This document shows, piece by piece, positions 33,469-62,978 of a stretch of DNA of 64,000 bases. Position 1 is the first letter of the stretch; the number at the start of each line of letters is the position of its first letter. The notes below the pieces were generated by a model that saw only the letters and a list, made by a program, of their open reading frames with translations, searched no databases and was not told the origin of the DNA. Source of the stretch: Micromonospora kangleipakensis. GTDB taxonomy: Bacteria > Actinomycetota > Actinomycetes > Mycobacteriales > Micromonosporaceae. The stretch spans positions 2,542,001 through 2,606,000 of the forward strand of contig NZ_SHLD01000001.1 of assembly GCF_004217615.1 (NCBI RefSeq), read 5' to 3'. Both the position numbers and the translations under genes were made by a program.

Positions 33469-33625
33469 CCCCGCTCCGGTACGCCGTACCGCGTCGCTGA
33501 CCCGGCCCGGTCCCGGTCGGACCGTTTTCCGCAAACCCGCCCCTGGGCCGGCGATCTGACGTCTGATCGGTCGTGGCCGGAGCGTGCCCGCCCCGGCGTG
33601 CGGTCCCACTCGACCTGGAGCCCGC

Positions 33626-36460
33626 GTGCTCGTACTGCTGATCCTGCACCTGGTGGCGGCCCTGCTCGCGCCGTTGCTGGTCCGCTGGTGGGGTCCGCGC
33701 GCCTGCTACCCGCTCGCCCTCGCGCCGGCCGCCGCGTTCGGCTGGGCCGTCGCCCACACCCCGACGGTCCGCGACGGCGGCGCGGTCGTCGAGACGTACC
33801 GGTGGATCGGCCAGCTCCGGCTCGACCTCGCGCTGCGGGTCACCACCCTGTCCTGGCTGATGTTGCTGCTGGTCGGCGGCGTCGGCGCGCTGGTGCTGGT
33901 CTACTCCGCCCGCTACTTCCACCCCGGCTCGGCGGGGGTGGCCCGGTTCGCGGCCGTGCTGGTCGCCTTCGCCGGGGCGATGCTCGGCCTGGTGGTCGCC
34001 GACGACCTGCTGCTGCTCTACGTCTTCTGGGAGCTGACCACGGTCTTCTCCTACCTGCTGATCGGGCACAGCACCGAGCGGCGGTCCAGCCGCTGGGCGG
34101 CCGCCCAGGCGCTGACCGTGACCACCCTCGGCGGGCTGGCGATGCTGGTCGGCTTCCTGCTGCTCGGCCGGCACGCCGGCGGCTACCGCTGGTCGGCGAT
34201 CGCGGCCGCGCCGCTGCCCGGTGGCGGGTACCTCGCCGCGGCGGTGCTGCTGATCCTGGCCGGGGCGCTGGCCAAGTCCGCCGTCGTGCCGTTCAGCTCC
34301 TGGCTGCCGGTGGCGATGGCCGCGCCGACGCCGGTCAGCGCGTACCTGCACGCGGCGGCGATGGTGAAGGCCGGGGTCTACCTGGTCGGGCTGCTCGCCC
34401 CGGTGCTCGCGATCGCCGGCCCGTGGCGTCCGGTCACCGTGGTCGCCGGGCTGGTCACCCTGGTCGCCGGGGGCTGGGCGGCGTTGCGGCAGACCGACCT
34501 GAAGCTGCTGCTGGCGTACGGGACGGTCAGCCAGCTCGGCCTGCTGACCGTGGTGATCGGCGCGGGCACGCCGAAGGCCGCGCTGGCCGGCACGGCGATG
34601 CTGCTGGCGCACGCGCTGTTCAAGGCGGCCCTGTTCCTCGTCGTCGGCCTCCTCGACCACTGTGCCGGCACCCGTGACCTGCGGGAGCTCTCCGGGGTCG
34701 GGCGTACCGCGCCGCTGCTGGCGGTGGTCGCCGGGCTCGCCGCCGCGTCGATGGCCGGGCTGCCGCCGCTGTTCGGCTTCGTCGCGAAGGAGGCGGTCCT
34801 CGCCGCCTTCACCGACCGGCCGCTCGTGCTCGCCGTGCTGGTCGGCGGCACCGCCCTCACCGTCGCCTACAGCATCCGGTTCCTGTGGGGCGCCTTCGCC
34901 ACCCGGCCCGGCACGCCGGCCACCGAACTGGCCGCCGCCCCGGCCGCGATGCTGGCGCCACCGGCCCTGCTCGCCGCCGCCGGGCTGGCCTTCGGTCCCG
35001 CCGCCGGCTGGCTGGGCGGCCTGCTCCACCCGTACGCCGAACTCTTCGGTCCGGGGGAGGCGCACCTCGCGCTCTGGCCCGGGCCGAACCTGGCGCTGGG
35101 GCTCTCCGCGGTCGCGGTCGCCGCCGGCGTCGCGCTGCACCTGGTACGCGGCCCGCTCGCCCCTGCGCTGGCCCGGCTGCACGTCCCGGTCGGCGGCAAC
35201 CAGGGCTACGAGTGGGTGACCCACCGCTTCGACCGGTTCGCCATCGAGGTCACCGGCGCCACCCAGCGCGGCTCGCTGCCGCAGTACCTCGGCGCCATCC
35301 TGCTCGCGCTGGTGCTGTTGCCCGGCGCGGCGATGCTGACCGCCCGCCCCTGGCGGGAACGGATCGCGCTCTGGGACACCCCCGCCCAGCTCGTGGTCTG
35401 CCTGGTGATCGCGGTGGCGGCGGTGTTCGCCGTCGGCGCCCGCCGCCGGCTCACCGCGATGCTGCTGGTCGGGGTGACCGGCTACGGCACCGCGATGATG
35501 TTCGTCCTCTACGGCGCGCCCGACCTGGCGCTCACCCAGTTCCTGGTCGAGACCGCCACCATCGTGCTCTTCGTGCTGGTGCTGCGGCGGCTGCCGGACC
35601 GGTTCTCGGCCCGACCGCTGCGCCGCAGCCGCTGGCTGCGGCGGGGAATCGGGGTGGCGGCCGGGGTGGTGATGGCCGGCCTCGCCCTCGCGGCGGCCGG
35701 CGCCCGGCGGACGCCGTCGATCTCGCTCGCCTTCCCCGACCTGGCGGTCGCCCAGGGCTACGGCCGCAACGTGGTCAACGTGACCCTGGTCGACATCCGG
35801 GCCTGGGACACCATGGGCGAGCTCTCCGTGCTGGTGGTGGCCGCGACCGGCGTGGCCAGCCTGATCTTCGAACGGTCCCGCACCGGGCCGCGGCCGCGCC
35901 GCCCCGCGCCGTCCGCGCCCCGTCGGGACCGGCGGCCGGTCTGGCTGCGCGGCGGGGCCACCCTGCGCGAGCGGCGCCGGTCGATCGTCTTCGAGGTGGT
36001 CACCCGGCTGATCTTCCACACCGTGCTGCTCTTCTCCCTCTTCCTGCTCTTCTCCGGGCACAACGCCCCCGGCGGCGGCTTTGCCGGCGGCCTGGTCGCC
36101 GGCCTCGCCCTCGCCGTCCGCTACCTGGCCGGCGGCCGGTACGAGCTGGCCGAGGCGGCGCCGGTCGGGGCGGGGACGGTGCTCGGCGCCGGGCTGGCCG
36201 TCTCCGTCGGCACCGGCGCGATCGGGCTGCTCCGCACCGGATCCGTGCTGGAGAGCGTGAAGGTCGACCTCTGGCTGCCCGCCGTCGGCCACTGCTACCT
36301 GGTCACGTCGCTCTTCTTCGACGTGGGCGTCTACCTGATCGTGGTCGGGCTGGTGCTGGACATCCTGCGCAGCCTCGGCGCGGAGGTGGACCGGCACGTC
36401 GAGGCGAGCGGCGGCCCGGAGGCGGGCCTGGCGGTCCACCGGGAGGGGGACCGGACGTGA
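33626..36460 (+). CDS. mrpA: Na+/H+ antiporter subunit A (MrpA with fused MrpB-type domain)
   Basis: MrpA is the largest subunit of the multisubunit Mrp/Mnh cation-proton antiporter and is related to NuoL. The 944-residue protein has about 20 membrane spans. The NuoL-like proton channel region includes V-P-F-S-S-W-L-P-V-A-M-A-A-P-T-P-V-S and the H-A-A-A-M-V-K-A-G motif. A C-terminal part resembles MrpB (F-S-L-F-L-L-F-S-G-H-N-A-P-G-G-G-F). Translation starts at GTG 33626 with GGAG upstream. Its stop codon lies inside the first copy of a 59-bp repeat that separates it from mrpC. Confidence 0.93.
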   Translation: MLVLLILHLVAALLAPLLVRWWGPRACYPLALAPAAAFGWAVAHTPTVRDGGAVVETYRWIGQLRLDLALRVTTLSWLMLLLVGGVGALVLVYSARYFHPGSAGVARFAAVLVAFAGAMLGLVVADDLLLLYVFWELTTVFSYLLIGHSTERRSSRWAAAQALTVTTLGGLAMLVGFLLLGRHAGGYRWSAIAAAPLPGGGYLAAAVLLILAGALAKSAVVPFSSWLPVAMAAPTPVSAYLHAAAMVKAGVYLVGLLAPVLAIAGPWRPVTVVAGLVTLVAGGWAALRQTDLKLLLAYGTVSQLGLLTVVIGAGTPKAALAGTAMLLAHALFKAALFLVVGLLDHCAGTRDLRELSGVGRTAPLLAVVAGLAAASMAGLPPLFGFVAKEAVLAAFTDRPLVLAVLVGGTALTVAYSIRFLWGAFATRPGTPATELAAAPAAMLAPPALLAAAGLAFGPAAGWLGGLLHPYAELFGPGEAHLALWPGPNLALGLSAVAVAAGVALHLVRGPLAPALARLHVPVGGNQGYEWVTHRFDRFAIEVTGATQRGSLPQYLGAILLALVLLPGAAMLTARPWRERIALWDTPAQLVVCLVIAVAAVFAVGARRRLTAMLLVGVTGYGTAMMFVLYGAPDLALTQFLVETATIVLFVLVLRRLPDRFSARPLRRSRWLRRGIGVAAGVVMAGLALAAAGARRTPSISLAFPDLAVAQGYGRNVVNVTLVDIRAWDTMGELSVLVVAATGVASLIFERSRTGPRPRRPAPSAPRRDRRPVWLRGGATLRERRRSIVFEVVTRLIFHTVLLFSLFLLFSGHNAPGGGFAGGLVAGLALAVRYLAGGRYELAEAAPVGAGTVLGAGLAVSVGTGAIGLLRTGSVLESVKVDLWLPAVGHCYLVTSLFFDVGVYLIVVGLVLDILRSLGAEVDRHVEASGGPEAGLAVHREGDRT

Positions 36461-36692
36461 GCGCGAGGAGTGAGCCGGTTCTGCGAGCCCCGCAGTCGCG
36501 AACAGAGGTGGCGCGGTGAGCGCGAGGAGTGAGCCGGTTCTGCGAGCCCCGCAGTCGCGAACAGAGGTGGCGCGGTGAGGGCGAGGAGTGAGCCGGTTCT
36601 GCGAGCCCCGCAGTCGCGAACAGAGGTGGCGCGGTGAGCGCGAGGAGTGAGCCGGTTCTGCGAGCCCCGCAGTCGCGAACAGAGGTGGCGCG
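36457..36692 (+). repeat. four tandem 59-bp repeats between mrpA and mrpC
   Basis: Four consecutive 59-bp units begin at 36457, 36516, 36575 and 36634. They are identical except for one C-to-G change at position 6 of the third unit. Each starts GTGAG(C/G)GCGAGGAGTGAGCC and ends with AGAGGTGGCGCG. The mrpA stop (TGA at 36458-36460) is within the first unit, and the mrpC GTG follows directly after the fourth. The repeat therefore appears inserted into an original GTGA stop-start overlap, and each unit restores GTGA at its border. It is too regular and spacer-free to be a CRISPR. Confidence 0.97.
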
Positions 36693-36696
36693 GTGA
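36457..36696 (+). other. chain of four overlapping 20-codon mini-ORFs in the repeat array
   Basis: Each repeat unit opens with GTG and reads 20 codons (M-S-A-R-S-E-P-V-L-R then A-P-Q-S-R-T-E-V-A-R) before a TGA that overlaps the GTG of the next unit. The coding parts are 36457-36519, 36516-36578, 36575-36637 and 36634-36696. AGAGGTG, 5 nt before each next GTG, serves as ribosome-binding site. The last mini-ORF overlaps the mrpC start. The third copy would read M-R-A-R. Translation is inferred from the layout, not shown. Confidence 0.5.
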
Positions 36697-37172
36697 AGGC
36701 GGTTGGGGCGGGACCGACCCTGGTGCTGGTGATCGCCGTCGGGGTGCTGGTGGCCACCGGCGTCACCCTGCTGCTGGAGCGGAGCCTGAGCCGGATCCTG
36801 CTCGGGGTCATCCTGCTCGGCAACGGGGTGAATCTGCTGATCCTGCTCGGCGGCCGGTCCGGGGCCGCCCCGGTGGTGGGCACCGCGCCCAGCGGGGAGA
36901 TGAGCGACGCGCTGTCCCAGGCGATGGTGCTGACCGCCGTGGTGATCACCTTCGGGCTGACCGCGTTCCTGCTCGCGGTCGCGTACCGGAGCTGGTATCT
37001 CACCGGCGACGACGAGGTGCAGGACGACCTGGAGGACCGGCAGGTCGTTCGGCTCGCCGAGCGGAACGAGGTCTCCACCGCGGACCTCGGCGGCGAGGGT
37101 CCGGACAACGACCCGGAGCAGGTGGACCCGGGGCCCGCGCTGCGTCGGCTGCGCCGCGGGGAGCAGGGGTGA
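36693..37172 (+). CDS. mrpC: Na+/H+ antiporter subunit C
   Basis: The 159-residue protein is a NuoK-like subunit with three membrane spans in the first ~110 residues. It contains the conserved L-L-G-V-I-L-L-G-N-G-V-N-L-L-I-L segment and D-A-L-S-Q-A-M-V-L-T-A-V-V-I. An acidic C-terminal tail (about 50 residues) is longer than in Bacillus MrpC. The GTG at 36693 uses the AGAGGTG ribosome-binding site supplied by the last repeat copy. Its stop overlaps mrpD by 4 bp. Confidence 0.94.
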   Translation: MKAVGAGPTLVLVIAVGVLVATGVTLLLERSLSRILLGVILLGNGVNLLILLGGRSGAAPVVGTAPSGEMSDALSQAMVLTAVVITFGLTAFLLAVAYRSWYLTGDDEVQDDLEDRQVVRLAERNEVSTADLGGEGPDNDPEQVDPGPALRRLRRGEQG

Positions 37173-62901: not shown

Positions 62902-62978
62902 GCCCGGGCCGGCCGGCGCGGGTCGGCGGGCCGGCCGGGGCGGATCGGCGGGCCGGCCGGGGCGCGCGTCGGGCGGCG

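Follow-up and report, generated by a model that had tools for sequence, protein, structure and literature searches.

The mycobacterial repeats known as MIRUs, which serve as typing markers for tuberculosis strains, show no marked dyad symmetry. Supply et al. are said to have proposed in 1997 that they transpose into DTGA sites involved in translational coupling, and reportedly placed them in the same orientation as the neighbouring genes. In the published passages that deal with them, MIRUs are units of 46-101 bp, arranged in tandem and scattered over 41 loci (PMC3914561), and are apparently mobile, inserting at start codons with an inner ORF coupled to the gene at -4 spacing (PMC12548453). 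The first-pass annotation of the window (the whole 64,000-nt stretch of Micromonospora kangleipakensis DNA analysed here) proposed that a repeat array in the mrp operon is adapted to insert into stop-start overlaps without breaking operons, and the present analysis supported that reading overall. The idea of an operon-safe repeat is not new: MIRUs have been described in such terms (PMC12548453), and what the annotation proposed is in essence the hypothesis already published for these mycobacterial repeats, met here in another genus. The repeat described here is a real, genus-wide, MIRU-like element.

The array consists of four head-to-tail 59-bp units (window 36457-36692) that exactly fill the junction between the mrpA stop and the mrpC start (Table 1), in an mrp antiporter operon that runs from an mrpA/B fusion through mrpC to mrpD, E, F and G. 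The nearest relatives of mrpC are Micromonospora records with up to 94% identity (its own record having possibly been left out). Every unit is a 20-codon GTG frame, (V/M)(S/R)ARSEPVLRAPQSRTEVAR, whose stop is the TGA within the following GTGA, and the fifth GTGA, at 36693-36696, is the start of mrpC. The core of unit 1 provides the GTG start and carries TGAs in the other two frames at +1 and +14. The coordinates, the unit sequences and TRF agreed with the annotated four-unit array (score 473, 98% matches; the runner-up among 25 rows for the window scores 108), and the 20-codon frame with its overlapping stop was seen in 4/4 units. By inspection, a Shine-Dalgarno-like AGAGG was present where a ribosome-binding site had been claimed for each unit, and the single base said to distinguish the copies was confined to unit 3. 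A separate tandem repeat (22 bp x 2.7, 94% matches) lies at window 62905-62964.

Table 1. Coordinates (window positions) of the array and its flanking genes, and loci with mini-ORFs at the mrpC/mrpD junction.
Feature	Position or loci	Strand	Remarks
Repeat unit 1	36457..36515	+	GTGA 36457-36460 contains the mrpA stop TGA 36458-36460
Repeat unit 2	36516..36574	+	Identical to unit 1
Repeat unit 3	36575..36633	+	One base changed, C to G at unit position 6
Repeat unit 4	36634..36692	+	Identical to units 1 and 2; followed by the mrpC GTGA
Conserved 47-nt core, unit 1	36457..36503	+	GTGAGCGCGAGG...GCGAAC
12-nt locus-specific tail, unit 1	36504..36515	+	AGAGGTGGCGCG; Shine-Dalgarno-like AGAGG 7 nt before next GTG
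AGAGG, likely ribosome-binding site of mrpC after insertion	36681..36685	+	By inspection
mrpA (MrpA-MrpB type fusion), upstream gene	33584..36460	+	
mrpC, downstream gene	36693..37172	+	Match to PF00420
C/D mini-ORF loci	L158-L160, L163, L165, L167-L169, L172, L173, L177, L179, L180, L182-L184, L188, L191		L160 from TGATG

A search for the core (GAGCCCCGCAGTCGCGAAC) with up to 2 mismatches identified 73 copies in the 7.27-Mb chromosome from which the window comes, and the reversed pattern, used as a control, matched once. With up to 1 mismatch, the core was present in 116 of 250 genomes of the family; it was found in all 63 sampled Micromonospora genomes (that of the window included) at 7 to 85 copies per genome, and the other genera of this 250-genome sample had 0 to 48 copies. 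Copy number in the sample was high in group g58 and for part of g54, whereas none of the 22 g33 genomes had a copy. Outside the family, the core occurred once, in 1 of the 171 genomes of other families in a 200-genome sample of the order, which may or may not include mycobacteria. A DNA search over 61 genomes detected the unit in 37/37 genomes of the genus and in 0/24 of other families. One plasmid record matched, M. terminaliae pLB1, which carries one unit placed exactly between the stop of an acyltransferase gene and the start of a glycerol-3-phosphate dehydrogenase gene. On the stretch of this plasmid that was examined (L368), one lysophospholipid acyltransferase protein is annotated twice, in opposite orientation, and a repeat unit follows one of the two copies. 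The phage records held no match to the unit, and a phage vehicle was rejected on this basis. Among the literature matches listed, judged by title and the start of the abstract, none concerned such a repeat in Micromonospora, where the element is apparently unreported.

In the window's own genome (G000), 72 of the 73 core copies made up the 44 arrays that were classified, the remaining copy lying near the end of its extracted stretch. The addition of arrays from other genomes brought the set to 180, from which 133 distinct loci were kept once 2 arrays lying at contig edges, 14 whose 5′ end could not be recognised, 13 that had no NTGA 9-22 nt past the core, and 18 duplicates or orthologues had been removed. 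The prediction that copies would sit at GTGA/ATGA junctions rather than at random held: an NTGA was found 9-22 nt past the core in 151 of the 164 arrays with recognisable ends (duplicates included), compared with 98 of 716 control windows, and was missing in 13. Using a codon model trained on the window, we could call the upstream gene clearly in 119 of the 133 loci and the downstream frame in 125; the NTGA requirement favours junctions in the kept set, and these coding calls are independent of that rule. The upstream gene ended at the left NTGA in 95 of the 119 clear loci, as expected of a repeat suited to stop-start overlaps, and otherwise at the second TGA of the element (+14) in 10, at most 12 nt earlier in 9, elsewhere in 4, and antisense in 1. 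Of the 125 loci with a clear downstream frame, 118 had the right NTG in that frame, and both features were combined in 85 of the 133. For comparison, ordinary co-directional neighbours in 400 kb of the same genome overlapped by -4 in 27 of 165 pairs (home-made gene calls). The upstream stops at the second TGA suggest that insertion ended genes not stopping at the NTGA, so that the target may be the start codon rather than the stop.

Exceptions to this placement were also seen. By our own reading of the classification, the right end shows no clear start in 8 of the 44 arrays of G000. Among these is the antisense array of three units at ~1501-1679 of L006 (G000 404736-404914), which lies between genes that by eye resemble nadC and coaX. 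At L125 (G000 ~1810849), a diverged core apparently lies within a gene and is read through.

For a mini-ORF to start at the NTG of its unit and stop in the following NTGA, the unit must have a length of 2 modulo 3. The length of the last unit ranged from 54 to 67 bp over the 133 loci (59 in 71, 62 in 19, 56 in 13, 65 in 3, 60 in 11, 57 in 8, and eight others), making 59 bp typical and not universal. The stop-start overlap that had been described for each unit was present at most loci and absent from a minority: 106 of the 133 last units were in this chain phase, all of them open and ending in the next NTGA, and 27 were not. Shuffling tail lengths among loci gave a mean of 63.3 chained units (sd 4.6) and a maximum of 80 in 5000 shuffles, compared with the 106 observed; because members of a subfamily have inherited their core and tail lengths, the loci are not independent, and this count reflects a smaller number of independent events, so that binomial p-values overstate it. 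Twenty of the 27 exceptions were open in frame into the downstream gene, which would imply either a fusion (N-terminal extension) or internal initiation, 4 had no NTG where the unit begins on the left, and another 3 matched neither description. Phase 1 was nearly absent (4 of 133 loci). The same preference extended to the inner unit periods, of which 42 of 58 were in chain phase, 15 in frame, and 1 neither.

This phase was kept across cores of different length. The main core classes are 47, 45, 42 and 51 nt, such that the conserved 3′ half is read in different frames, and the tails mostly bring the phase back: in 72 of 89 loci whose core length is 2 mod 3, in 32 of 39 where it is 0 mod 3, and in 2 of 5 where it is 1 mod 3, these last five being the loci with a 43-nt core. 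Selection on the peptide was rejected, as mean variation outside the variable stretch was 0.013, 0.012 and 0.010 at the three codon positions with no third-position bias, values to which the locus-finding core pattern brings a bias against variation in the 3′ half. With variation equal at the three codon positions, it is the phase that is kept and not the peptide. Pairing of the tails with the anti-Shine-Dalgarno sequence averaged -7.49 over the 133 loci, stronger than for shuffled tails (-6.05) and roughly on a par with native upstream ends (-8.04).

Comparison of mrp operons gave a view of the same junctions with and without the repeat. We collected mrp stretches from the window's genome and from the 60 best-scoring of the 99 genomes, among 101, that have an mrpC relative, a choice that favours near relatives. 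Intact copies were found at the A/C junction in 13, at C/D in 6 and at F/G in 8 of the 61 genomes, with decayed copies at C/D in L147 and L153; none of the 61 stretches had a copy at D/E or E/F, or an antisense copy at any position. Copy number at A/C varied from 0 to 4, with no intact copy in 48 of the 61 operons. On the mrpD tree these states require at least 10 changes at A/C, 6 at C/D (8 with decayed copies) and 7 at F/G, counts in which gains are not separable from losses. The first-pass annotation had proposed a comparison of copy number, and between species both differences and precise empty sites exist: G034 (L195, putatively M. alfalfae) has four units at A/C, and in the same starred clade of the mrpD tree G095 (L194, putatively M. 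saelicesensis) and G029 (L190, putatively M. sp. H61) have clean ATGA overlaps there. The tree sister of the window's genome, G032 (L138), has one A/C unit whose tail is the same as that of the window's four, which fits the proposed recent expansion; gene conversion could also homogenise the units.

The mrp spacers themselves also keep the frame. Among the spacers without an intact repeat at the three junctions (n=28), 26 are spanned by a single mini-ORF linking the NTGA of the upstream gene to that of the downstream gene; of the other two, one is fused in frame and the second, L160, starts at TGATG. Of the intact-repeat spacers (n=24), 17 are chained as one ORF, five are multi-unit arrays in which the first ORF stops short of the gene by an integral number of units, and two, L154 (C/D) and L152 (F/G), are not chained; these spacer counts leave out 3 A/C rows and 7 F/G rows. 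Of the 56 control gaps of 10-120 nt in the 400-kb stretch, one was a -4 chain and another a -1 chain, but few control gaps (5 of 56) have an NTGA at both ends, so the contrast between mrp and ordinary gaps is largely that of having both NTGAs; the single control gap with a repeat unit was not chained. The repeat-less mrp spacers keep frame across many lengths. By eye, the majority of the C/D mini-ORFs do not resemble the repeat, and their occurrence in related species reflects common descent; they may be old remnants or unrelated. Many species in the other main mrpD clade carry no repeat at mrpC/mrpD, where a chain-phase mini-ORF of 6-12 codons links the two genes (Table 1). At L142 (mrpC/mrpD), and possibly also at L153, a second, palindrome-like sequence of ~50 nt lies within the unit, and at L142 the mini-ORF is open and in phase despite it. 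Taken together, the comparative evidence that a relay frame is kept is good, and its retention in the intact units and the mrp spacers is comparative evidence that ribosomes may be relayed through the mini-ORFs.

The bases that precede the left and right NTGA gave a partial signature of insertion. Positions -1, -2 and -3 match between the two sides of one locus in excess of the matches found across loci (z 9.7, 4.8 and 4.3), all three being the same in 33 of 133 loci compared with 6.2 after permutation, and nothing clear was found from -4 outward in the 133 loci. Such matches point to a target of about NNN-NTGA that was duplicated and then eroded, or to a homology-guided step; we call the signature partial because it is invisible at most filled mrp A/C sites. 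A long target duplication, in which the whole tail derives from the left flank, was rejected as a rule, given that the matches fade beyond -3 and that most filled A/C sites are without it. A few loci, L007, L016 and L208 among them, look as if the left flank had been copied into the tail. No autonomous long copy came to light, the matches to the 5′ end motif (71) nearly coinciding by eye with those to the core (73); one-mismatch 5′ ends without a listed core of their own lie at 166788, 544971 and 672472, and one at 2516837 has a diverged core only. A structured RNA was rejected, as five sequences folded no better than their shuffles (z 0.29 to 1.14), and so was a known RNA family, with 0 Rfam matches at E up to 1 for 36300-36850.

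The explanation that best accounts for these observations, and one that we hold with considerable confidence, is that the unit belongs to a mobile, non-autonomous repeat family, dispersed in Micromonospora and certain related genera, that preserves coupling as a MIRU does. Its copies lie in the sense orientation at NTGA start codons, most of which also contain the stop of the upstream gene. Each supplies a start (GTG), a short frame that is open and a tail resembling a Shine-Dalgarno sequence, and a new NTGA stands at its right end. Ribosomes that finish the upstream gene could then re-initiate on the mini-ORF, which ends in the next NTGA, and re-initiate there on the downstream gene, and by this relay the operon is proposed to keep its translational coupling. 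After insertion, the unit would expand locally into a tandem array, as with the four units at mrpA/mrpC. Because the unit rebuilds the stop/start overlap with its own tiny frame, it can apparently move through operons and leave them intact. Position, orientation, reading phase, filled and empty sites and differences in copy number were observed as such; we infer that the mini-ORFs are translated, that spread is by transposition and that insertion is neutral to the host.

One alternative is that insertion is random and that purifying selection leaves only the copies in the right phase at NTGA junctions. The phases do look selected, with mrp spacers of varied length keeping frame and phase 1 being so rare, but long gaps between genes should tolerate copies under this model, and such gaps are common (57 of the 165 sampled co-directional pairs are >120 nt apart), yet the arrays without a clear right-end start number eight of 44 in G000. 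The excess of loci at which all three pre-NTGA bases match also points to a target-site step, and we regard random insertion as unlikely to be the explanation. A further alternative is that the array is regulatory, the number of units tuning the subunit ratio or mRNA behaviour of mrp and being kept for that reason. Its location in an operon that encodes the subunits of one complex, and the range of copy number at A/C, agree with such a role, but the element occurs at tens of other junctions of G000, most mrp operons have no intact copy at A/C, and the RNA fold is not unusual; a regulatory function accordingly seems improbable.

The unit is short, dispersed and non-autonomous, as are REP/BIME elements with their RAYT proteins, and movement by a RAYT or IS200-type Y1 transposase was considered because 13 of 41 genomes of the genus have a Y1 transposase. 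REPs are palindromic, but the unit has no hairpin beyond shuffled expectation, and the window's genome, with its 73 copies, has no Y1 transposase; REPs are also not known for restoring start codons. A REP-like origin is hence very hard to credit. The mobile, coupling-preserving repeat that we favour shares with MITEs its small size, lack of autonomy, multiple copies and possible short target duplication, and differs from them in that its placement is bound to start codons; no terminal inverted repeat is visible by inspection of the consensus.

The closest likeness is to MIRUs, and in its behaviour the unit works like one, whether or not it is one by descent. It too is short, dispersed and often tandem; it lies in the sense orientation at NTGA junctions, with the one antisense array of G000 as noted; its short inner ORF overlaps the neighbouring start by -4 at the 106 chained loci; and it has no dyad excess in the five folded sequences. 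It differs in range, being found in Micromonosporaceae, with the core missing from 170 of the 171 sampled genomes of the order's other families. For the Micromonospora unit, moreover, four main core-length classes, mostly compensating tails and frame-keeping spacers are documented. We tentatively consider, as a possibility somewhat against the odds, that start-codon cassettes arose more than once: the present family and MIRUs would be unrelated and convergent, the unit would target an NTGA that follows a Shine-Dalgarno sequence and be moved by some recombinase, and its copies would be translated relays in which the phase, and not the peptide, is selected.

The passages on MIRUs in the two reviews (PMC12548453, PMC3914561) cite no experiment on movement or on translation of the ORF. 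In Micromonospora, a soil genus, the element is present in 7 to 85 copies per genome, its empty sites are precise and its turnover is fast, so that both movement and translation become testable in a host that is harmless, and gene starts at repeat sites could get better annotation. The finding is of moderate interest in that the old MIRU idea gains a host that is easy to work with and many natural examples to draw on.
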